A stretch of 64,000 nucleotides of DNA from contig NC_009253.1 of assembly GCF_000016165.1 (NCBI RefSeq), forward strand, positions 1,894,332 to 1,958,331. The letters are read 5' to 3'. Every line of letters begins with the position of its first letter. The first letter of the stretch is position 1. A program made the translations under genes and the position numbers. Shown here piece after piece: positions 19,879-55,724 of this stretch. The notes beneath the pieces were generated by a model. That model was not told where the DNA came from. It searched no databases and saw only the letters and a program-made list of their open reading frames with translations. Origin of the DNA: Desulforamulus reducens MI-1. GTDB lineage: Bacteria > Bacillota > Desulfotomaculia > Desulfotomaculales > Desulfotomaculaceae.

Positions 19879-19916
19879 AGATGCAAGGCAAGGCATCATT
19901 GCCTTGCCTTGCATCT
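19879..19916 (-). repeat. Perfect 17-bp hairpin between metE and the MTHFR fusion
   Basis: AGATGCAAGGCAAGGCA and its exact complement flank a 4-base loop. The hairpin overlaps the metE stop codon. There is no T-run after it on the reverse strand, so it looks more like an mRNA-stabilising or processing hairpin, or a leaky terminator, than a strong terminator. Confidence 0.7.
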
Positions 19917-22209
19917 AAACAAACATCACCCTTTGCAATCCTAGTCTAATGTGCTGTGCTGCCTTCACCATATTAGACAAACTCCATCTTATCTCATCCC
20001 ACTTGCGAGTTTTAAGGCCACAGTCAGGATTAATCCACAGTTTTGACGGTGGCAAAACTAACATTAAGTTTCTAATCTTCTCTTCCAGTTCTTCAACAGA
20101 TGGAACTCTAGGCGAGTGAATATCATAAATGCCAGGGCCAATCTCATTTTTATACCCTCGAGTTGCAAAAACAGTTAACAGTTTGTTGCCGCTTCTGGAC
20201 GTTTCAATGGTAATAACATCTGCGTCCATCTTTTCTATGGTATGAATAATATCATTAAAGTCACTGTAACACATATGAGTATGGATTTGTGTTTCTATGG
20301 CAGCAGAGCTAACGGCTAATTTGAAAGATTTAACAGCCCAATTTTCATAATATGCAACTTTTTCTTTTCGTAGAGGATATCCTTCTTTGAATGCGGCTTC
20401 ATCAACCTGAATAATTTTGATTCCTGCCTTCTGAAGGTCATTAATCTCATCTCTAATGGCCAACGCAATCTGTTCACAAACAGCAGAACGTTCCATATCA
20501 CTTCGACAATAGGACCAATTAAGAATGGTAACAGGTCCTGTTAACATTCCCTTTACAATTTTATTGGTTTTGCTTTTAGCATACAAAATGGTATCAATGG
20601 TCATTGGTTTTGGTCTACTGACATCACCAAAGATAACCGTTGGCTTTACGCATCTGCTGCCATAGCTTTGTACCCAGCCGTTTTGCGTAAAAACAAAACC
20701 TGAAAGCCGTTCGCCAAAATACTCTACCATATCATTTCTTTCTGGTTCGCCATGTACCAAAACATCCAGCCCAATATCTTCTTGAAATTGAATACATGAA
20801 TCAATGTAGTTCTTAATTCCTGTGTCATATTCTATTTGAGAAATAACATTATTTTTAAAATCCCGTCGTAGCTTTCTAATTTCTTCTGTTTGAGGAAAGC
20901 TACCAATGGTTGTTGTTGGAAGTAATGGTAGGTCTAACTTTTTTCTCTGTGCTTCATTTCTGTCATTAAAAGAGCCATCTCTTTCTCTCCTTTTAATGTT
21001 ACCTACCCGTTCTCGCACTATAGGGTCTATTACTTTCGAAGATTGTTGCTTTTCTCTAAAGATTCTTTGATTATTTTCAAGAATTGTCAGGATATCTTCT
21101 GAATTATTTTCAACAAAAAACAATTTTGCGAGATCCGATAGTTCGTCAAGTTTTTCTCGAGCAAAACTCATCCAGGATTTAATATCTTTGTCCAGATGAT
21201 TTTCATGCTTTAAAGAATAAGGGACATGTAGAAGAGAGCAGGTCGTGGAAAGGATGATATCCTCTTTTTTAACATTTTTTTCGATGTCTTTTAGTAAAGT
21301 CAATGTATTATGATAGTTATTCTTCCAAATATTTCTTCCATCGATAACACCTGCAATCAGTTTTTTTCCATTCAAGGAGTCCAGGACTTTAAGATTTTCC
21401 TGGCCATAAACAAAATCAAGGCCTATACCGTAAATTGGAATATCAGATAGTATTTTTACAGCCTCCACCGCATGATCAAAATAAGTCATTACGATCAGTC
21501 TAAGCCTGTTACTCACGTTGGATAATTCTTTATAGCATAAGTAAAACAGATTTAGTGTTCGTCTGTCGATATCCTTTACAACGATCGGTTCGTCAAATTG
21601 GATGTATACTTCATCATCAAGATCCGCAATTTTTTTGAGAAGAGAAACATAACAAGGCAAAATCTTTGGCAAAAGTTCCAAGGTATCTTGATTACCGTCA
21701 ACAGGCTTGGAAAGAGACAAAAATGTTATTGGCCCAATTAAGTTAATTTTTGTCCGAAGGCCATATTCTTTTGCTTCCCGATACTCATTAATTATTTTAT
21801 CTGCACATAATGAAAAGTTCATGGTATCGGAAAGTTCGGGGACAATATAGTGATAATTGGTATTAAACCACTTAGTCATTTCCATTGCAACAGTATTATT
21901 CGTTCCTCGAGCCATCGCGAAATAAAGCTCTTGCTTGTCATGGATATTACTAAATCTTTCAGGAACTGCATTTAACATTATTGCCGTATCAAGCATGTTA
22001 TCATATAAACTAAAATCATTACTACTAATAAAAGAGATACCTGCCTCTTTTTGGTACAACCAGTGTCTTCGCCGTAAGTTTTTTGCAATCTCGTCAATCT
22101 CACTAAAACTCGTTTTTTGATCCCAATAACGCTCGAGGACTTTTTTTAGTTCTCTTTGTTCTCCGATTCTCGGGAAACCCACCACATAAGTAGTTGCTCC
22201 TGTGTACAA
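19915..22209 (-). CDS. metE: Cobalamin-independent methionine synthase
   Basis: Transfers a methyl group from 5-methyltetrahydropteroyl-triglutamate to homocysteine without B12. The N-terminal GFPRIGEQRELKK motif and the C-terminal zinc and substrate motifs are present (TIGSFPQT, VHGEPERNDMV, HMCYSDF with His and Cys ligands, NPDCGLKTR). The TTG start at 22209 (764 residues, normal for MetE) follows GGAGGAG by 5 bases. A longer in-frame ATG at 22251 would fall inside the riboswitch. Repression of metE when B12 is available is the expected logic. Confidence 0.93.
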   Translation of the reverse strand: MYTGATTYVVGFPRIGEQRELKKVLERYWDQKTSFSEIDEIAKNLRRRHWLYQKEAGISFISSNDFSLYDNMLDTAIMLNAVPERFSNIHDKQELYFAMARGTNNTVAMEMTKWFNTNYHYIVPELSDTMNFSLCADKIINEYREAKEYGLRTKINLIGPITFLSLSKPVDGNQDTLELLPKILPCYVSLLKKIADLDDEVYIQFDEPIVVKDIDRRTLNLFYLCYKELSNVSNRLRLIVMTYFDHAVEAVKILSDIPIYGIGLDFVYGQENLKVLDSLNGKKLIAGVIDGRNIWKNNYHNTLTLLKDIEKNVKKEDIILSTTCSLLHVPYSLKHENHLDKDIKSWMSFAREKLDELSDLAKLFFVENNSEDILTILENNQRIFREKQQSSKVIDPIVRERVGNIKRRERDGSFNDRNEAQRKKLDLPLLPTTTIGSFPQTEEIRKLRRDFKNNVISQIEYDTGIKNYIDSCIQFQEDIGLDVLVHGEPERNDMVEYFGERLSGFVFTQNGWVQSYGSRCVKPTVIFGDVSRPKPMTIDTILYAKSKTNKIVKGMLTGPVTILNWSYCRSDMERSAVCEQIALAIRDEINDLQKAGIKIIQVDEAAFKEGYPLRKEKVAYYENWAVKSFKLAVSSAAIETQIHTHMCYSDFNDIIHTIEKMDADVITIETSRSGNKLLTVFATRGYKNEIGPGIYDIHSPRVPSVEELEEKIRNLMLVLPPSKLWINPDCGLKTRKWDEIRWSLSNMVKAAQHIRLGLQRVMFV

Positions 22210-22250
22210 TTTAACTCCTCCTTTTTTGTTAACGCGACAAAAAATTAGCA

Positions 22251-22348
22251 ATTACCATGGTATTCGGACTCCGGACTTGCCATTAAGGCCTTCCGTTACC
22301 GTAGCGCGACTGTGTCCGATTCTCACGGACTTCCCCATTAGCGGTAAT
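22251..22348 (-). promoter_or_regulatory. Cobalamin riboswitch upstream of metE
   Basis: Read on the reverse strand, a closing stem CAATTACC/GGTAATTG surrounds core segments of the cobalamin riboswitch: GGGGAAGTCCGTGAGAATCG, the ACAGTCGCGCTACGGTAA junction, and AGTCCGGAGTCCGAATACC. It is compact (about 100 nt). The 3' arm of the closing stem runs directly into CTAATTTTTT, which suggests termination linked to the closed, ligand-bound form. It lies just 3' of a SigA promoter and 42 bases from the metE start. Confidence 0.88.
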
Positions 22349-22357
22349 TGATTAACA

Positions 22358-22386
22358 ATTATAAAGTACCATATAATATTTGTCTA
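22358..22386 (-). promoter_or_regulatory. SigA-type promoter for the riboswitch-metE transcript
   Basis: On the reverse strand TAGACA and TATAAT are separated by 17 bases and lie just before the riboswitch. Confidence 0.7.
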
Positions 22387-33292: not shown

Positions 33293-33709
33293 AGTTATTG
33301 GTAGGTTCGGTATGACTGTTGCATTCTTTAGTAATTCAAAACGAATATAATATACCAATACTTTGGTTCAAATTTCTATGTTGCGCATTGGAGTTAGGTG
33401 TTGTCTGATTGCAGTTGCTTTTTATTCTTCCATTTTATTGTCTTAGCCTCATAACTAAATTTTCTAGATTTTTATTTATTTTAGATGTTTATACTTTTTA
33501 AAAGACGTCCGTAAGTGTAAAATAATATATGGAAGCAATTGGGAAAAATAACAAAAAAAGCAAATATATTTTTTTTATTAATACAAATACACCTAATGAT
33601 GAGAACTATTTCTTCCCTCTCCAATGCACTTATTCTTTCTGATATACCAAGGAAAAGACAAAAAAAGTCTACTTTATATTTGAAAACAATCAGGAAAGAG
33701 GTGATTTAT

Positions 33710-35824
33710 TTGAAAATATGGGAAATCATGACATCTCCTGTATTGACCTTAAATCCTAGTCAAAAAGTTAGTGAGGTTGTAACCATCTTTATGGGCAATA
33801 AGATAGATGGTGCACCAGTAGTAGATAAAAGCGGCAAATTGGTAGGCCTTTTCACAAAGAGTCATATTTATCGCGTTATAAATAATGGCTTGGATATGAA
33901 TAAAACAAAGGTTAAGGATTTAATGACCAAGCAGCTATTAACTGGTCATCCAGATGATGAGTTTAGTGATGTAATAAACGCTTCGGTACCTCGACTTCCT
34001 GTTATTGATGAAAAAGGACGGGTTGTGGGGATTGTAACTCGCGGGGATATAGCAAAAGCCTTTTTTAATTTGCACCGAAGCATTTCTCTCGAACTGGATA
34101 CGATTATTAACTCAACTCATAATATGATTATCTCGATTGATGAAAAAGGAATAATTAAGGTATGGAACTTGTCTGCTGCAAGATTATTAGATACCAAGGC
34201 AGAAGATGCAATTGGCAAACATTTATTAGATATTCTTCCTAACAGTGATCTTTTAGATGTTATTGAGACTGGAGAAGTTGATACTTTAAAGAAAGTGAAA
34301 TTTAATAAACGTACCTTTATATCGAACCGTTCTCCAATTAAAAAGGATGGTAAAATTATTGGTGCAGTGGCCGTTCTTCAGGATATATCAGAAATAGACA
34401 AAATGTCTAAGGAACTATGTTATGTTAAGGAATTGAATAAAGAATTAGATGCCATTGTTGAATCGTCTTTTGACGGTTTATTTATAACCGATGGTAAAGG
34501 TATAATTTTACGTTACAATAAGGCATTTGAGCAATTAACGGGCATCAAAGCACATGAATATTTGGGACTAAGCGTAGCGGATATTAAAAAAGATGGAATT
34601 ATTTCTGAACCTGTAACCTGCCATGTATTGGAGCAGAAGAAATCTATTACAATTATGCAAAAAAGTAGAAGTGGGAAACTCACACTAACTACGGGAAACC
34701 CGATCATGGAAGGAAACGGAGAAATCATAAGAGTTGTGTGCAATGTAAGGGATATAACTGAACTAAATCTATTAAGACACAAGCTAGAAAAAGCCAAAGG
34801 GTTAAGCCAGCACTATGAGAACCAACTTCGTACTTTGAAGTTACAGTACAATGGCTCTGAAAAAATAATAGCCACTTCTGCCAAAATGAGGAACCTGCTT
34901 GATATGGTTGTAAGGCTGGCCTCCGTTGACTCGACTGTTTTAATAAACGGGGAATCTGGAACTGGGAAAGAACTAATTGCAGAAATCATTCATAGTAATA
35001 GTTCACGGAAAGATAAGCCATTTATCAAGGTTAATTGTGGGGCTATTCCAGAAAATTTATTGGAGTCAGAGTTGTTTGGCTATGATGGCGGAGCATTTAC
35101 GGGGGCTAAAAAAGAGGGTAAGCCAGGATATATAGAAATGGCTTCTGGAGGCACATTATTTCTTGATGAAATTGGTGAAGTCCCGCTTAATTTACAGGTA
35201 AAACTGCTTCGGTTTTTACAGAGTAAGGAAATTATTAGGGTAGGGGGGAAAAATTATATTAATGTTGATGTTCGCATAGTAACTGCTACAAACAGAGATC
35301 TTTGGGACATGGTTCAGAAAAAGCAGTTTCGAGAGGATCTTTATTACCGATTAAATGTAGTACCTGTGCATATACCTCCACTGCGCGATAGAAAAGAAGA
35401 TATACCCGCTCTTGTAGCACATTTTATTCAGGTATTTAACCGCAAATACAAAAGGAATAAAAGTATATCTCCAGAAGTAGTTGATTATATTATGCAATAT
35501 AACTGGCCTGGGAATATAAGGGAATTAGAGAATCTTATTGAGAGAATGGTTGTTATTACAATTAAAGATATTATAACTAGCGAAGATCTTCCTTTCCATT
35601 TGCGGGACACGGTTGGCTTAAGTTCTTCTTATATTTTGGTTTCAGGTATCGTTCCTCTAAGGGAAGCTATAGAAAGCGTAGAAAAGCAGTTATTAGAAAA
35701 GGTCTATTCTAAATATCGTAGTACTAGACAAATGGCTAAGGAACTAAAGGTAAATGCCTCTACAGTTGTAAGAAAGGCAGCAAAATATCAAATATCGAAA
35801 GATTCATCCATACAAAATAATTAG
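33710..35824 (+). CDS. Sigma-54-dependent activator with CBS and PAS domains (copy 1)
   Basis: A 704-residue enhancer-binding protein. Order: two CBS domains (about residues 1-115), two PAS domains (about 125-245 and 250-365), an AAA+ domain with Walker A GESGTGKE, the sigma-54-contacting GAFTGA loop, Walker [11 protein letters not shown] and R-finger region, and a C-terminal Fis-type helix-turn-helix ([19 protein letters not shown]). There is no receiver domain, so it senses an internal signal, perhaps a nucleotide through CBS and a small ligand through PAS. TTG 33710 follows AGAGGTGAT. Its likely targets are the sigma-54 promoters at 36253 and 39383. Confidence 0.9.
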
Positions 35825-36164: not shown

Positions 36165-36182
36165 TGTTGAGTCTATGCAACA
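36165..36182 (+). promoter_or_regulatory. Candidate upstream activating site (TGTTG-N8-CAACA)
   Basis: TGTTGAGTCTATGCAACA has TGTTG and CAACA arms with 8 bases between, 88 bases upstream of the sigma-54 -24 element. The same arm arrangement recurs at 53513-53530. Further half-sites (GGCAAC, TTGTTGC) lie at 36015-36043. Confidence 0.5.
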
Positions 36183-36252: not shown

Positions 36253-36269
36253 TGGCATGAAAGTTGCTT
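36253..36269 (+). promoter_or_regulatory. Sigma-54 promoter
   Basis: TGGCATGAAAGTTGCTT matches the -24/-12 consensus TGGCAC-N5-TTGCW with GG and GC ten bases apart. It drives the small-protein, M24 peptidase and DUF6125-like genes. Confidence 0.85.
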
Positions 36270-39382: not shown

Positions 39383-39399
39383 TGGCATGAATGTTGCTA
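39383..39399 (+). promoter_or_regulatory. Sigma-54 promoter of the mutase operon
   Basis: TGGCATGAATGTTGCTA has the TGGCAT-N5-TTGC form, nearly identical to the promoter at 36253. It lies 84 bases before the adenosyltransferase start and contains an in-frame ATG at 39387 that is therefore not a real start. Confidence 0.85.
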
Positions 39400-48589: not shown

Positions 48590-48825
48590 ACTTGCTTCTA
48601 CAACTTCGACCGCTGTATACAAAAAGATACACTACGGGGTGTAAAGGGTGTAACATTTTATTGTTTGTTCAGCCTGTTGCAACCCGTGTTATCTCATAAA
48701 ATTCTTCGAATCGTCAATTTATGACATGTTTCGTATTATTTTGTCTATAAATGTAGTAATTTTCGCAATAATATCACTTTTCAATTAACATTAATCTATG
48801 ATAAGGTAGGGTTGAGGTGGTGGAA

Positions 48826-50913
48826 GTGAAGCTACGAGATATTATGACCCGCAAGCCCATTGTTCTGACACCGGAGCAAACTGTCCAAGAGGTGGCGGAA
48901 ATCTTCCTGAACCACCAGGTAGATGGTGCACCGGTAATTGATAGCAATGGAAATATTATTGGACTTTTTACGAAGAGTCAAATCTTCAAACTGGTTAGTC
49001 AGGGACTGAGTGTACAGACGACAATTGCTACATTAATTAGAAGAGACGTTAATAATAACTCAAATGATGATGTGGAAGAAATTTTAATGCAGGAATCGGG
49101 GCGGTTCCCCCTTACTGAAGGGCAAGCTTTTGCAGACATGAAAACACGGACGAATCTTTTAAGTGCGTTCAATAATTTTTATCAAGATGTTTCTTGTGAG
49201 TTTGCCACAATCATTAACTCCATTCATGATCTGATTGTTTCTGTGGATGAAGAAGGAAGAATTAAGGTGTTTAACAGATCAGCAGAGAAATTCTTCGGAA
49301 AAACATTACAAGAGGTAAAGGGAAAAAAGATTAATGAACTATTTCCCAACATTGGACTGATGGATGTTATTCAATCAGGCAAAGTTGAAAAGATACATAA
49401 AGTTTTGCTAAATAATCAATATTTTATCATTAATAAATTCCCCGTCAAGATGAATGACAAAATCACCGGAGCCGTAGCTGTCTTTCAACAATTTTCCGAG
49501 TTGGAAAGTATATCTGGGGAGTTAAAATCTGTTAAAGAATTAAATCAAGAATTTGATGCCATTATACAATCTTCCTTTGACGGACTTTTCATTACCGATG
49601 GAAACGGGATAACCCTTCGAACGAACAAAGCCTTTGAACGTATAACCGGTGCAGATGCTTCAACACTTTTAGGGCGTCACATTGAGGATCTAATAGATGA
49701 GGGAATTGTTTCGGAATCAGTGACATCCCTTGTCCTAAAGCAGCGAGAAACCGTTACCATTATGCAAAAAACACAGATTGGCAAGATAACCTTGGCTACA
49801 GGTAATCCAGTCTTTGACGAAAATGGTAATGTCTTTCGAGTGGTTTGTAACATCCGTGATATCACTGAACTGAACTTGCTAAAACAGGAATTGGAACAGG
49901 CCCGGGGATTGAGGCTTCATTACGAGAGACAATTGCGCTCGTTAGGCATTCATTATCCCGGCTCCGACAAGATGGTGGTTAATTCAGCAAAAATGAAGGA
50001 CCTCATGGGGCTCATCATGCGGTTAGCCGAGGTTAATTCAACTATTTTAATCACCGGGGAATCAGGAACAGGGAAAGAATTAATTGCAGAAACACTACAC
50101 AAGAACAGTCCCCGCCAAGATGGACCTTTCATTAAAGTTAATTGTGGAGCAATTCCAGAAAACTTATTGGAATCAGAATTATTTGGTTATGAATATGGTG
50201 CCTTTACAGGTGCTAAAAAACAAGGTAAAGCTGGCTATTTCGAGTTGGCAATGGGGGGGACTCTTTTTCTTGATGAGATTGGGGACTTGCCTCTGAACCT
50301 GCAGGTTAAACTATTACGAGTTCTACAGAGTAGAGAAATTGTCCGGGTTGGGGGAGAAAAACCCCTTAAGATTGATGCTCGCATTTTAGCAGGCACCAAC
50401 CGAAATTTAATTGAAATGGTTCGACATAAAGAGTTTCGGGAGGATCTCTATTATCGATTAAATGTAGTTCCCGTAAATGTACCTCCCCTAAGGGAGAGAA
50501 AAGAGGATATACCAGCACTGGTTACTCACTTTGTTTTGATGTTTAATCTTAAATATAAACTTAACAAAAGAATTTCCCGTGAGGTGATAGACATCTTCCT
50601 TCGGTACAATTGGCCAGGCAATGTTCGGGAACTGGAAAATCTTATTGAAAGATTAGTGGTTGTAACCCCTAGGGACTTATTAACCAGGGAGGATCTCCCT
50701 CCTAATCTGGGAGGAAGTACCCCAGAGAGTTTGCCTGTTCAGGTATCTGGCCTTATGCCCTTGAAAGATGCAGTGGAATATGTAGAAAAACAAGTATTAG
50801 AAAGGGCCTATGCAGAATGCAGAACAACTCGACAAATGGCCAAAGCATTAAAAGTCGATGCTTCTACTATTGTCCGTAAAGCTGCTAAGTATGGAATTTC
50901 AAAAGCACAATAG
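48826..50913 (+). CDS. Sigma-54-dependent activator with CBS and PAS domains (copy 2)
   Basis: A 695-residue paralog of the activator at 33710 with the same order: CBS pair, two PAS domains, AAA+ domain ([24 protein letters not shown]) and Fis-type HTH (TRQMAKALKVDASTIVRKA). The first CBS unit is intact (VDGAPVIDSNGNIIGLFTKS). The second is degraded: where copy 1 has [19 protein letters not shown] this one has FPLTEGQAFADMKTRTNL. GTG 48826 is preferred by comparison with copy 1 and by GAGGTGG 5 bases upstream; GTG 48817 and 48820 are alternatives. Likely activator of the promoters at 51289 and 53841. Confidence 0.9.
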   Translation: MKLRDIMTRKPIVLTPEQTVQEVAEIFLNHQVDGAPVIDSNGNIIGLFTKSQIFKLVSQGLSVQTTIATLIRRDVNNNSNDDVEEILMQESGRFPLTEGQAFADMKTRTNLLSAFNNFYQDVSCEFATIINSIHDLIVSVDEEGRIKVFNRSAEKFFGKTLQEVKGKKINELFPNIGLMDVIQSGKVEKIHKVLLNNQYFIINKFPVKMNDKITGAVAVFQQFSELESISGELKSVKELNQEFDAIIQSSFDGLFITDGNGITLRTNKAFERITGADASTLLGRHIEDLIDEGIVSESVTSLVLKQRETVTIMQKTQIGKITLATGNPVFDENGNVFRVVCNIRDITELNLLKQELEQARGLRLHYERQLRSLGIHYPGSDKMVVNSAKMKDLMGLIMRLAEVNSTILITGESGTGKELIAETLHKNSPRQDGPFIKVNCGAIPENLLESELFGYEYGAFTGAKKQGKAGYFELAMGGTLFLDEIGDLPLNLQVKLLRVLQSREIVRVGGEKPLKIDARILAGTNRNLIEMVRHKEFREDLYYRLNVVPVNVPPLRERKEDIPALVTHFVLMFNLKYKLNKRISREVIDIFLRYNWPGNVRELENLIERLVVVTPRDLLTREDLPPNLGGSTPESLPVQVSGLMPLKDAVEYVEKQVLERAYAECRTTRQMAKALKVDASTIVRKAAKYGISKAQ

Positions 50914-50954
50914 CCTTGAAAAATAATGGTTGCATTTGATGCCAAAATGCAACG

Positions 50955-51006
50955 TGTTGTTGTAATGTGGAAACATTCCGAATAATGCGAAGTTGTTACA
51001 ACAACA
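50955..51006 (+). promoter_or_regulatory. Distal inverted repeat upstream of the Fe-S oxidoreductase gene
   Basis: TGTTGTTGTAA at 50955-50965 and its exact complement TTACAACAACA at 50996-51006 are 30 bases apart. It lies about 334 bases before the sigma-54 promoter, close to the 328-base distance of a similar site upstream of etfB. The rest of 50914-51374 is AT-rich non-coding DNA. Confidence 0.45.
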
Positions 51007-51184: not shown

Positions 51185-51211
51185 TGTTGCGATATTGCTA
51201 CGGTTGTTAGG
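51185..51211 (+). promoter_or_regulatory. Conserved 27-bp upstream activating element
   Basis: TGTTGCGATATTGCTACG followed by GTTGTTAGG. It matches 22 of 27 bases of the element at 53737-53763, and both start exactly 104 bases upstream of the TGG of a sigma-54 promoter. Probable binding site of the adjacent activator. Confidence 0.7.
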
Positions 51212-51288
51212 TCGGTTACAAACCCGGATTCCATTTAAACACCCCAAAACTCTCGTTCAACAGGGTTTATACCTTAAATTAGTACAAT

Positions 51289-51305
51289 TGGTATGAGACT
51301 TGCAT
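51289..51305 (+). promoter_or_regulatory. Sigma-54 promoter of the Fe-S oxidoreductase gene
   Basis: TGGTATGAGACTTGCAT has the TGG..-N5-TTGC form with correct GG/GC spacing, 70 bases before the start codon. Confidence 0.85.
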
Positions 51306-51374
51306 TATAGTTATCTGTTGGGAACTCCGCGGGTTCTTGACTAGAAAGAGATAAGGTCGAAGGGAGAGGACAAA

Positions 51375-53411
51375 ATGAGCCCCATAAGATTTATTTTATT
51401 TATTGCATTAATTGCATTTGGTCTGTTTAATATGGTGAAAGGTATTCAAGAACGTTTGAATGCAACCTATTTAGGTAAGAAAGATGACCGCATGGATAAT
51501 ATTGGGGAACGATTGAAAGGTTTGCTAATTTATGCATTAGGTCAAAGAAAAGTTGTACAAGAAGCCGATGGCGGTATCATGCATATTATGATATTTTTTG
51601 GTTCGTCTTTATTTGGTTTAAGAATTCTGGAATTTATTTTATCATCATTAATCCCAGGCATTTTCATTCCGTTTATTAGTGATAACGCAATCTTTTATCT
51701 TTTAACTGACATTTTAGGATTAATAGCCATTGTGGGGATTTTGTATTCCGGTTGGCGACGTTGGGTGCAGAAAGTTGAGCGTCTGGAGCCAGAAGCTTTT
51801 GGTACTCCTGCAGAAAATCTAATTTTAGCAATGGTTAGTGGACTAACACTAATGATTGCTTCTGTTTTTGTGGCGTCTGGATTTAAAGCAGCCTTAACCC
51901 AAGATCCCGCCTCTTCTGTTGCTCCTATTACAGGTTTTTTTGCAAATTCGTTTAATGGCTTACCTAAGGGCGATTTAGAAATAGGTTTTGAAGTATTCTT
52001 CTGGGTACATGTAGTATTTTTATCTGGTTTTATGGTATTTTTTAGATACTCACCGCATGTGCATCCGGTATTTGCACCCTTAAATATCTTCTTCCGTACA
52101 TTGAAACCAAGGGGCGGGATGATTGAACCCATTAATTTTGAAGATGAGAGTATTGAGCAGTATGGTGTAGCAAAATTAGAAGATTTTAATTGGAAACAAA
52201 TTATGGATGCTTATGCTTGCGCCGAGTGCGGTCGCTGTCAGGCTAACTGTCCGGCTTATCTTAGTGGAAAACATCTTTCGCCAAAACATCTTATTCATAA
52301 GCTAAGACTGCATGTAGATGAAAAAGCAAAAATGCTTGGCTCTGCATTGGGAAATCATTCATCTGGCTTAGCGGCAGAAGAGACTGCAGCCAGTAGCGAA
52401 GCATTAGAACAAAATTTAGTACCGGATATTTTTAGTGCTGAAGAAATTTGGGATTGTACAAACTGTGCCAGTTGCATGGAGCAATGTCCGGTTTTAAATG
52501 AACATGTGCCTAAAATTAATCAAATGAGACAAAATCTTGTACTTATGGAAAGTGATTTTCCTGCAGAAGCACAATTGGCATTTACTAACATGGAGCGTAA
52601 CTATAACCCATGGGGTGTAGGTTGGAACTCCAGAGGAGAATGGGCTAAAGATCTAGATATTAAACTGTTAAGTGATGATAGTAACGTAGATGTTGTATAC
52701 TTTACTGGTTGCGCAGGTGCCTTTGATGATCGTAGTCAGAAAGTTGCTACCGCCTTTGTCAAAATAATGAAAGCAGCAGGTGTGAATTTTGGAATTCTTG
52801 GTCCTGAAGAAAAGTGTTGTGGTGATTCTGCCAGACGTTTAGGAAATGAATACTTAGCTCAAGAATTAATTAATAGTAATATTGAGACTTTAAACAATTA
52901 TGGAGTTAAGAAAATCGTAACGACCTGCCCTCACTGTTTAACTGTATTAAAGGATGAGTATCCTCAGTTTGGCGGTAATTATGAAGTACTACACCACACT
53001 CAGTTTATTAATCAGTTAATTCAAGCGGGCAAGTTAAAGTTTAAACAAGCAGATTCAATGAAGAAGATAACATATCATGATTCTTGCTTCCTGGGACGCT
53101 ACCAGGATGAGTATGAAGCTCCTAGACAAATTATTAACCGATTGCCAGGTATCAATCTGGTTGAGATGACAAGAAACAAAACCAAGGGCTTTTGTTGTGG
53201 GGCTGGTGGCGGACGGATGTGGCTAGAAGAACATGGCACTCGAATCAACGTAATGCGTACAGAACAGGCTTTAGAAACAAACGCAGAAATTATAGCAACT
53301 AACTGTCCGTTCTGTCTGACAATGATTGAAGATGGCGTAAAAGATAAAGAAGCAACTGAAAAAGTCAAAGCCTTTGACCTTGCAGAATTAGTAGAACGAA
53401 ATTTACAGTAA
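51375..53411 (+). CDS. Membrane Fe-S oxidoreductase, probable ETF:menaquinone oxidoreductase (EMO)
   Basis: A 678-residue protein with a NarI-like membrane domain (five or six TM segments within about residues 1-235). Two 4Fe-4S motifs follow, CAECGRCQANCP and CTNCASCMEQCP, then two CCG domains (CAGAF..CCGDSARR..TTCPHC and CFLGRY..CCGAGGGRMW..TNCPFC). This architecture is known for the membrane oxidoreductase that takes electrons from ETF and reduces menaquinone during butyrate oxidation in syntrophs and sulfate reducers. It has its own sigma-54 promoter and terminator and lies just before etfBA. Confidence 0.88.
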   Translation: MSPIRFILFIALIAFGLFNMVKGIQERLNATYLGKKDDRMDNIGERLKGLLIYALGQRKVVQEADGGIMHIMIFFGSSLFGLRILEFILSSLIPGIFIPFISDNAIFYLLTDILGLIAIVGILYSGWRRWVQKVERLEPEAFGTPAENLILAMVSGLTLMIASVFVASGFKAALTQDPASSVAPITGFFANSFNGLPKGDLEIGFEVFFWVHVVFLSGFMVFFRYSPHVHPVFAPLNIFFRTLKPRGGMIEPINFEDESIEQYGVAKLEDFNWKQIMDAYACAECGRCQANCPAYLSGKHLSPKHLIHKLRLHVDEKAKMLGSALGNHSSGLAAEETAASSEALEQNLVPDIFSAEEIWDCTNCASCMEQCPVLNEHVPKINQMRQNLVLMESDFPAEAQLAFTNMERNYNPWGVGWNSRGEWAKDLDIKLLSDDSNVDVVYFTGCAGAFDDRSQKVATAFVKIMKAAGVNFGILGPEEKCCGDSARRLGNEYLAQELINSNIETLNNYGVKKIVTTCPHCLTVLKDEYPQFGGNYEVLHHTQFINQLIQAGKLKFKQADSMKKITYHDSCFLGRYQDEYEAPRQIINRLPGINLVEMTRNKTKGFCCGAGGGRMWLEEHGTRINVMRTEQALETNAEIIATNCPFCLTMIEDGVKDKEATEKVKAFDLAELVERNLQ

Positions 53412-53415
53412 TTAT

Positions 53416-53454
53416 ATTGGTATAAGGGTGTATTATTTTCACCCTTATACCAAT
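53416..53454 (+). terminator. Perfect 15-bp hairpin after the Fe-S oxidoreductase gene
   Basis: ATTGGTATAAGGGTG pairs exactly with CACCCTTATACCAAT over a 9-base loop. The T-run is weak (AATTTAATAAT). Confidence 0.65.
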
Positions 53455-53512
53455 AATTTAATAATATATAGGTCGAACTTATTTATCAGAATATTCTATA
53501 TCATTATTTAGT

Positions 53513-53530
53513 TGTTGTATTTTTGCAACA
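53513..53530 (+). promoter_or_regulatory. Candidate upstream activating site (TGTTG-N8-CAACA)
   Basis: TGTTGTATTTTTGCAACA, with the same arm layout as 36165-36182, lies 328 bases before the sigma-54 promoter of etfBA. TTTGTTGC and GTTGTTGC half-sites follow within 40 bases. Confidence 0.5.
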
Positions 53531-53736
53531 TTTGTTGCAGAACAAAAACAAGTTGTTGCTTATTTTTTATATAATATTAAATTATCAAAATCTTTAATAA
53601 TTTAATTATTTGATTATTATGAATTGCAAAAATACACAGACATGGGGGTTCTGGAAAAAGAGGTAGAGAGTAACAAGAATGAATGGTTTATTTTAAATTC
53701 TAACTAATAATATGCTAACGTAAACTTTCTGTAATT

Positions 53737-53763
53737 TGTTGCAATATTGAAACGATTGTTAAG
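53737..53763 (+). promoter_or_regulatory. Conserved 27-bp upstream activating element (second copy)
   Basis: TGTTGCAATATTGAAACG followed by ATTGTTAAG, starting 104 bases upstream of the sigma-54 promoter at 53841. The match and identical spacing to 51185-51211 point to a shared activator. Confidence 0.7.
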
Positions 53764-53840
53764 AGTGTAGCAAACCATTATCTGGCTTATTTGCCTTAAA
53801 CTTCAGTGCTAGCAAGGATAAGTCATGTGCAAGACGATCT

Positions 53841-53857
53841 TGGTATGATATTTGCAC
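53841..53857 (+). promoter_or_regulatory. Sigma-54 promoter of etfBA
   Basis: TGGTATGATATTTGCAC has the TGG..-N5-TTGC form with correct spacing, about 108 bases before the etfB start. Confidence 0.85.
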
Positions 53858-53964: not shown

Positions 53965-54732
53965 ATGAAAATCTTAGTTTTACTAAAACAAGTATTTGAT
54001 ACCGAAGCCGTAATCAAAATTGCAGATGGAAAAATTAGCGGTGATGGTATCACCCAGATCATCAATCCTTATGATGAGTTTGCTGTTGAGGAAGCGCTGA
54101 AAATTGCGGAGGCTACTAAGGGCGAAGTAACTATCGTTTCTGTAGGGGCAGATGTAGAACAAACCGTACGCCAAGCTCTGGCAATGGGTGCAACAAATGG
54201 TTATGTAGTTGAAGACGCTGCTATGACTGATGTCGATGAGTACAGTATAGCTACTATTTTGTCCAAAGCTATTGGTGCTATGCAATACGATCTGATTTTA
54301 GCAGGCTGGCGGGCAATTGATGATGGTTCTGCCCAGGTAGCTAGTCGTGTTGCCCAAGCTTTAAATATTCCTTTAGTTAATTTAGCTATCAAGTTGGATG
54401 TTGCTGACGGAAAAGCCACAGCAGTTACTGAAATTGATGGTGGTACTGCAACGATTGAAGTTCCTTTACCAGCTGTGGTTACTTGCCAGAAAGGCCTTAA
54501 TGAGCCCCGTTACCCATCCATGAAGGGTATTATGCAGGCTAAGAAAAAGAAAATAGAAAAGGTTGGATTGGGAGCTTTAGGTCTTGATGCATCTGCTGTA
54601 GCAGCAAAAGCAAAAACCTTAAATATCTATTTACCACAAACCCGGGCTGCCGGAAAGGTTATTACAGATGAGCCCGCCGTTGCAGCTAAGGAAGTTGCAA
54701 AACTGTTAAGAGAAGAAGCTAAAGTTATTTAA
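53965..54732 (+). CDS. etfB: Electron transfer flavoprotein beta subunit
   Basis: A 255-residue ETF beta subunit that, with EtfA, accepts electrons from acyl-CoA dehydrogenase. The N-terminal KILVLLKQVFDTEA, NPYDEFAVEEAL, AGWRAIDDGSAQV and EPRYPSMKGIMQAKKK segments are family hallmarks. ATG 53965 follows AAGGAGGGTGCGT; a GTG at 53959 lies in that site. It is preceded by a sigma-54 promoter and sits 14 bases before etfA. Confidence 0.94.
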   Translation: MKILVLLKQVFDTEAVIKIADGKISGDGITQIINPYDEFAVEEALKIAEATKGEVTIVSVGADVEQTVRQALAMGATNGYVVEDAAMTDVDEYSIATILSKAIGAMQYDLILAGWRAIDDGSAQVASRVAQALNIPLVNLAIKLDVADGKATAVTEIDGGTATIEVPLPAVVTCQKGLNEPRYPSMKGIMQAKKKKIEKVGLGALGLDASAVAAKAKTLNIYLPQTRAAGKVITDEPAVAAKEVAKLLREEAKVI

Positions 54733-54746
54733 AGGAGGGGAAGCCA

Positions 54747-55724
54747 ATGGCAAAAGGTATTTGGGTATTTGCAGAACAACGTGATGGCAAAATTAAAAAA
54801 GTAACATACGAATTATTAAGCGCTGGTCGTGGTCTGGCTGACAATCTCGGAGAAGAACTTTGTGCTGTATTATTTGGTAAAGATGTTGCCGGAGCAGCTG
54901 CTGCTCTTGGTGAATATGGAGCAGACAAGGTTTTTGTAGCCGATAACGAAAAACTAGCTGAATATACTAATGATGCATATGTTAATACACTGTTTGATTT
55001 GGCAAAAGCCAATGAACCCAATGCAATATTATTCGGATATACCGCTAGTGGTCGTGATTTAGGTGCTAGCATAGCTCAACGTCTTGAAACTGGTATGTTT
55101 TCAGATTGTGTAAGCGTAAAAGTTGATGGTGGTCAGTTAGTATTTGATCGTCCCCTTTATGCAGGCAAAGCCTTTGTATCTGCTTCTTGTCCAGAAGCAC
55201 GCCCTGTTGTTGCTGCAATGCGTCCTAACGTATTAGCAATTAATGAACCTCAGGCAGGTAAGCAAGCCGAGGTAGTAAACGTTGAAGTTTCTGGAGATAT
55301 TCGTCAGGTGATTAAAGAGGTTGCCATGGCAATTTCTTCTCGTCCAGAACTTACTGAAGCTAGTATTATTGTTTCAGCTGGTCGTGGTGTAAAAGCTCCA
55401 GAAAATATGAAACTAATCGAAGAATTTGCAGACTCCATTGGTGCTGCTGTCGGATGTTCAAGGGCAGTTGTTGATGCTGGATGGTATCCCCAGGCTCAAC
55501 AGGTTGGACAAACTGGTAAAACCGTAGCTGCCAATCTATACATTGCATGTGGTATCTCCGGTGCTATTCAGCATTTAGCTGGTATGAGTTCCTCCAAGTG
55601 CATTGTTGCCATCAACAAAGACCCTGAGGCTAATATCTTTAAGGTAGCCGATTATGGTATCGTCGGTGACCTGTTTGAAGTTGTACCTATTCTTAAAGAA
55701 GAGTTGAAAAAACTTTTAGCATAA
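54747..55724 (+). CDS. etfA: Electron transfer flavoprotein alpha subunit
   Basis: A 325-residue ETF alpha subunit with the C-terminal FAD domain: SAGRGVKAPENMKL, GAAVGCSRAVVDAGW, QVGQTGKTV, YIACGISGAIQHLAGM and INKDPEANIFKVADYGIVGD. There is no N-terminal ferredoxin domain. It pairs with the preceding etfB. Proximity to the membrane Fe-S protein suggests electron flow to menaquinone, although an electron-bifurcating role cannot be ruled out by eye. AAAGGAGG precedes ATG 54747. Confidence 0.94.
   Translation: MAKGIWVFAEQRDGKIKKVTYELLSAGRGLADNLGEELCAVLFGKDVAGAAAALGEYGADKVFVADNEKLAEYTNDAYVNTLFDLAKANEPNAILFGYTASGRDLGASIAQRLETGMFSDCVSVKVDGGQLVFDRPLYAGKAFVSASCPEARPVVAAMRPNVLAINEPQAGKQAEVVNVEVSGDIRQVIKEVAMAISSRPELTEASIIVSAGRGVKAPENMKLIEEFADSIGAAVGCSRAVVDAGWYPQAQQVGQTGKTVAANLYIACGISGAIQHLAGMSSSKCIVAINKDPEANIFKVADYGIVGDLFEVVPILKEELKKLLA

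Follow-up and report, generated by a model that had tools for sequence, protein, structure and literature searches.

Gene content of the locus

Within the window (the whole stretch of 64,000 nucleotides of Desulforamulus reducens MI-1 DNA analysed here), the gene for a sigma-54 activator, designated copy 2 (48817..50913, + strand), is followed by a gene for an EMO-type (EtfAB:menaquinone oxidoreductase type) membrane Fe-S oxidoreductase (51375..53411, +) and by etfB and etfA, which encode the electron transfer flavoprotein subunits (53965..55724, +). Copy 2 combines one CBS domain and two PAS domains with a Sigma54_activat domain containing GAFTGA, an AAA lid and an HTH. These are the features of sigma-54 EBPs (PF00158, 3.2e-70; HTH_50, 5.3e-11; GAFTGA at residue 461), and we propose copy 2 as the cognate activator of the sites described below, with the EMO-type gene as a predicted regulated gene. 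By family and gene context, the Fe-S oxidoreductase corresponds to the proposed EtfAB:menaquinone oxidoreductase of Syntrophomonas wolfei, which adjoins etfAB2 (PMC4324140).

A search of the same genome revealed two close relatives of copy 2, namely copy 1 (56% identical; 33539..35824, +) and copy 3 at C1:432988 (67%). Pfam matches gave two CBS domains in copy 1 and one in copy 2, and copy 3 heads a cluster of thiolase, enoyl-CoA hydratase, acyl-CoA dehydrogenase and CoA-transferase genes. Among 113 genomes of the order, comparably close proteins were encoded only by genomes G032 (58%) and G034 (56%), each within a methylmalonyl-CoA-mutase-like cluster resembling that of copy 1, to which these two activators are orthologous; no copy-2 orthologue with the same gene neighbourhood was found in these 113 genomes. 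In the phylogenetic tree the three copies and the G032 and G034 activators form one clade with a support of 100/100, in which copies 2 and 3 are sisters and copy 1 groups with the activators of G032 and G034. The HTH segments of the five clade members are alike and differ from the HTH of other homologues.

Two further features were observed near these genes. A DDE transposase gene (PF13701; 46861-48315, - strand) is located between the mutase cluster and copy 2, and a very similar one is present at L122:341-1795. A sigma-54-like sequence without a dyad, CGGTATGACTGTTGCAT (33303-33324), lies upstream of copy 1 and may be due to chance or represent the copy 1 promoter.

Paired elements upstream of sigma-54 promoters

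As sigma-54 promoters we accepted the pattern TGG(C/T)A(C/T)-N5-TTGC(A/T) at -24/-12 in a genome that carries rpoN. A single rpoN gene was found (C1:3251818, 213 bits), and promoters of this type precede the EMO-like gene (TTGGTATGAGACTTGCA; 51288..51304, +) and etfB (TTGGTATGATATTTGCA; 53840..53856, +). Both match TTGGYATGNNNNTTGCW exactly, for which there are 8 exact matches in the whole genome (3,608,104 bp). The preliminary description of this DNA had reported a pair of 27-bp elements upstream of the two promoters, TGTTGCGATATTGCTACGGTTGTTAGG at 51185-51211 and TGTTGCAATATTGAAACGATTGTTAAG at 53737-53763, which agree at 22 of 27 bases and start 104 bases before the TGG (51289 and 53841, respectively); our analysis reproduced both the identity and the offset. 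In simulated pairs with the same base and neighbour composition as the real upstream DNA, an agreement of 22/27 in the promoter-anchored register was not reached in any of 20,000 first-order Markov simulations (best 20), and about 0.7% of the simulated pairs reached it when any register was allowed. The 22-bp "three-copy" repeats flagged by a repeat finder at the element locus proved to be ordinary AT-rich matches and were rejected.

By comparing the proximal elements of the EMO-like gene and etfB with a third element, found by the search described below, we recognised two parts in the 27-bp element: a dyad of 16 bp, GTTGCA-N4-TGCAAC, and a third half-site, TTGTTR, located 2 bp beyond it. Before the EMO-like gene, the proximal element (51185..51211, +) consists of the dyad GTTGCGATATTGCTAC (51186-51201), 2 bp and the half-site TTGTTA (51204-51209). 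Its counterpart before etfB (53737..53763, +) consists of the dyad GTTGCAATATTGAAAC (53738-53753), 2 bp and TTGTTA (53756-53761); this dyad is a hybrid that combines a GTTGCA and a GTTTCA half-site, and it differs by a single mismatch from the type of site found beside copy 3.

Distal TGTTG/CAACA repeats had also been reported, and these are real and contain the same dyad at -330 (50959) and -327 (53514). The distal half-site cluster before the EMO-like gene (50929..51005, +) comprises GTTGCA-N13-TGCAAC (50929-50953), the dyad GTTGTAATGTGGAAAC (50959-50974) and GTTGTTACAACAAC (50992-51005). The distal element before etfB (53514..53537, +) has all three parts, with the dyad GTTGTATTTTTGCAAC, AT and TTGTTG, and includes the palindrome TGCAACATTTGTTGCA (53524-53539). 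The form TGT-N12-ACA is found at the distal EMO and etfB sites and at two sites in G032; the proximal sites of these two genes have ACG at the end, and the third element has GGT-N12-ACT.

Genome-wide specificity and the pan promoter

With at most three mismatches, the 25-bp consensus matched the whole genome three times, at the two elements in the window and at one site just outside it; the reversed consensus, used as a control, gave no match in the whole genome. The more general pattern GTTGYR-N4-TGMWAC-N2-TTGTTR had four exact matches genome-wide (EMO proximal, etfB distal, etfB proximal and pan proximal), none at one mismatch and four at two mismatches. All four exact matches are located upstream of sigma-54 promoters, three strong promoters in total. 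Since these sites served to define the pattern, their exact matching is in part circular; the informative observation is that other close matches are lacking.

The third element was found by the search and was not chosen beforehand. It lies about 1 kb past the right end of the window (L004:1272-1603; G000:C1:1959271-1959602), where a perfect dyad is positioned at -91 relative to an exact sigma-54 promoter, TTGGTATGATATTTGCA, at C1:1959361. Downstream of this promoter is a pan-motif RNA (RF01749, 56 bits against an Rfam gathering score of 36.2), followed by the genes for a DUF2520 protein, panB and panC. It is unexpected for a pan motif to be preceded by a sigma-54 promoter.

Dyads at activator-linked promoters

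We compared ten sigma-54 promoters linked to activators of the clade (six in this genome, two in G032 and two in G034) with ten control sigma-54 promoters. Allowing at most two mismatches, 17 dyads were found in the linked promoters, against 0.19 expected from Markov shuffles and one in the controls, while searches of the linked promoters with 179 permuted dyads never produced more than two matches. Nine of the ten linked promoters have a dyad at -85 to -105 with up to three mismatches (0.11 expected; one in the controls); the remaining one, at 39383, is without a proximal dyad and has just a weak one at -342. Upstream activator sequences (UAS) of EBPs are expected to be repeated dyads 80-250 bp upstream of EBP-linked sigma-54 promoters and specific to them, and the dyad counts agree with this. 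The preliminary description had named an equal frequency of the motif away from sigma-54 promoters as evidence against its reading, and this is not what was found: all four genome-wide matches lie upstream of such promoters, and the dyads are about 90-fold enriched at the linked promoters of three genomes and not at controls.

Close to copy 1, the dyad GTTGAGTCTATGCAAC (36166..36181, +) lies 87 bp upstream of a sigma-54-type promoter, TGGCATGAAAGTTGCT (36253..36268, +), which is downstream of the copy 1 gene. The only exact GTTTCA-N4-TGAAAC in the genome is found behind copy 3, 277 bp before the sigma-54-like promoter TGGCATAGGCTTTGCG ahead of the thiolase gene. Between copy 3 and the thiolase gene there are tandem dyads 22 bp apart, GTTTCAATATTGAAAC and TTCAATATTGAAAC (L120:10311-10348; G000:C1:435310 onwards), and the copy-3 half-site GTTTCA is a one-base variant of the GTTGCA of copy 2. 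At L119 about 4475 (- strand; G000:C1:2491459), an unrelated-looking promoter that matches the sigma-54 pattern exactly precedes two genes for iron-type alcohol dehydrogenases and has the dyad GTTGCAAAAGTGCAAA at -66; this dyad was left out because it probably belongs to another regulator, possibly another EBP.

Measured from the first dyad base to the T of TGG, the proximal dyads lie at -103 before both the EMO-like gene and etfB, at -91 before the pan operon, at -87 at the copy-1 target and at -92 at the weak copy-3 site; those of the relatives lie at -90 and, weakly, -101 in G032, and at -89 and -97 in G034. The 104-bp distance given for the first two sites in the preliminary description is exact for that pair, but does not hold as a rule, and we dropped a fixed spacing as a meaningful feature because the other proximal sites range from -87 to -101. 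Proximal placement is confined to about 17 bp, -87 to -103, and equality is unnecessary.

Comparison with related genomes

The pattern was fitted in part to the sites in the window, and the pan promoter and genomes G032 and G034 provide independent support for it. The three-part pattern occurs just once in the 4.5 Mb of G032, 90 bp upstream of the sigma-54 promoter that belongs to the activator-bearing cobO/mutase cluster. Genomes of the same genus, searched for a footprint of the two window promoters, were found to lack the activator as well as a close EMO-type gene. Genomes G020 and G032 encode EMO proteins that are 78 and 76% identical, respectively; there, etfBA lies ahead of the EMO gene, and that stretch was found to contain neither a sigma-54 promoter nor a dyad. 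As the EMO and etfB promoters are without orthologous counterparts in the searched genomes, their sites rest on recurrence within the genome and on the activator clade elsewhere, and not on a direct phylogenetic footprint.

In Sporotomaculum and Desulfoscipio, as well as probably Desulfofarcimen (G032), the acd-etfBA-EMO genes are preceded by a sigma-54 promoter but not by this dyad, and two show TGTCTA-N6-TAGACA-like repeats instead. At two Desulfoscipio loci (L062:3401 and L088:3427), an inverted repeat of this type lies upstream of a conserved sigma-54 promoter before acd-etfBA-EMO, and these loci appear as a parallel system with another site.

Proposed regulation and alternative explanations

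We consider it highly probable, from the sequence evidence, that both elements are UAS (enhancers) for a sigma-54 EBP of the CBS-PAS-AAA+-HTH clade, most probably copy 2. The reading of the preliminary description, in which they were predicted sites of a CBS-PAS EBP, gains support from the promoter-specific motif and from its enrichment at activator-linked promoters. The sites themselves are specific to these promoters and conserved with the activator clade. Since copies 1, 2 and 3 have similar HTHs, the assignment to copy 2 rests on adjacency.

It is less likely, although by no means negligible, that copy 1, copy 3 or mixtures of the paralogues bind the sites instead of, or besides, copy 2, so that the clusters form one cross-regulated network. 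The recognition helices of the three copies are close, the copy-1-linked promoters carry the same dyad, and the hybrid etfB proximal site is a single mismatch from a copy-3-type site. However, copy 2 adjoins its presumed targets, and EBP genes are usually found next to their targets (PMC6615313); moreover, the exact GTTTCA-N4-TGAAAC occurs only beside copy 3, which suggests some specificity.

The element might instead be the site of a repressor or other factor, such as a TetR-type fatty-acid regulator or Rex, lying upstream of sigma-54 promoters by coincidence: dimeric repressors, too, typically bind inverted repeats of such a length, and control by TetR or FadR is common for genes of beta-oxidation. 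We disfavour this explanation as highly improbable. The sites are multiple and follow the activator clade across genomes. Their distances from the sigma-54 promoters downstream of them, 87-103 and about 330 bp, are typical of UAS (100-250 bp according to PMC6615313), and we noticed no gene for a repressor among the neighbouring ORFs of the window clusters. Even more remote is the explanation that the similarity of the elements is a functionless relic of one duplicated promoter region. The two promoters are 2552 bp apart and have proximal and distal sites at near-equal positions, but outside the element the upstream regions have 30% in-register identity, compared with 30.7 +/- 2.6% at shifted registers. 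As flank identity is the same in and out of register, the promoter DNA is not generally duplicated; in addition, further promoters and other genomes carry the motif at different spacings.

For the preferred reading, UAS of a clade EBP, the scheme that follows, from binding and the identity of the binder to activation and signal, is predicted from sequence. Activator dimers would bind the dyad GTTGCA-N4-TGCAAC, and the third half-site TTGTTR, 2 bp beyond it, may raise local occupancy or help in hexamer assembly, a role that the distal clusters 200-250 bp further out may share. Through DNA looping, the AAA+ ring would reach the sigma-54 RNA polymerase at the -24/-12 promoter some 90-100 bp away and remodel it through ATP hydrolysis. 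The CBS-PAS part would gate activation in response to a signal, for which an acyl-CoA, a nucleotide or a redox cue would be plausible. Such a switch would co-ordinate the EMO-type gene, etfBA and the pantothenate (CoA supply) operon outside the window, and the beta-oxidation genes behind etfBA are probably co-regulated, given their collinear order.

More tentatively, and with somewhat less than even confidence, we suggest that the activators multiplied in one genome together with their sites and that one half-site base sets specificity, with copies 1 and 2 recognising GTTGCA and copy 3 recognising GTTTCA; a serine-to-alanine change where the recognition helix begins may serve to read this base. 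The same suggestion includes an array of three half-sites and a copy-2 regulon that joins EMO/etfBA electron transfer to CoA supply via a sigma-54 promoter reading into a pan-motif RNA.

Relation to known systems

In sulfate-reducing bacteria of the Desulfotomaculum type, a family of sigma-54 activators that turns on genes of fatty-acid oxidation very probably binds at this element. The concept itself has a precedent, since PMC12316311 reports in general terms that beta-oxidation genes of Clostridia are under sigma-54 control. Gene switches of this type are well known; for these bacteria, we found no description of the site pattern or of the activators in the open-access literature.

PMC6615313 describes reconstructed clostridial EBP regulons with TGT-N10-12-ACA sites, several of them before acyl-CoA and etf operons. 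Those EBP groups, which also include XcgR and YctR, resemble the present system in their PAS-rich one-component EBPs, sigma-54 promoters and multiple UAS before acyl-CoA/etf operons, with UAS that are often TGT-N10-12-ACA inverted repeats. They are named in that text only for Clostridium, Clostridioides or Geosporobacter, whereas the present organism is a sulfate reducer and the process is oxidation. Judged by the same description, the GTTGCA-N4-TGCAAC core with its third half-site, and the EMO-type gene and pan operon as extra targets, also set the present system apart. PrdR, the sigma-54 regulator of proline reductase (NF041552), is the best NCBIfam match to copy 2, and its PAS, AAA+ and HTH align, but copy 2 scores 520.7 bits, below the cut-off of 795 bits, and the target genes differ. 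FhlA- and NifA-type UAS (TGT-N10-ACA) are likewise inverted repeats for a Fis-type HTH upstream of a -24/-12 promoter, but here the core reads GTT-N10-AAC, and TGT-N12-ACA is confined to the distal sites and those of G032. The PAS/sigma-54 regulators of syntrophic fatty-acid oxidisers are a close known system; for one of these, Swol_0456 of Syntrophomonas wolfei, the available text of PMC4324140 gives no binding site or target.

These results provide a concrete predicted binding site for the CBS-PAS activator family of Desulfotomaculales, with a predicted regulon of fatty-acid oxidation electron transfer and CoA synthesis. The three natural pairs of paralogue and site in one genome offer a way to study how duplicated EBPs separate their targets.

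Elsewhere in the window, a cobalamin riboswitch (RF00174, 41.4 bits; 22249-22381, - strand) was detected just upstream of a minus-strand ORF (19915-22251) that reads like a cobalamin-independent methionine synthase.
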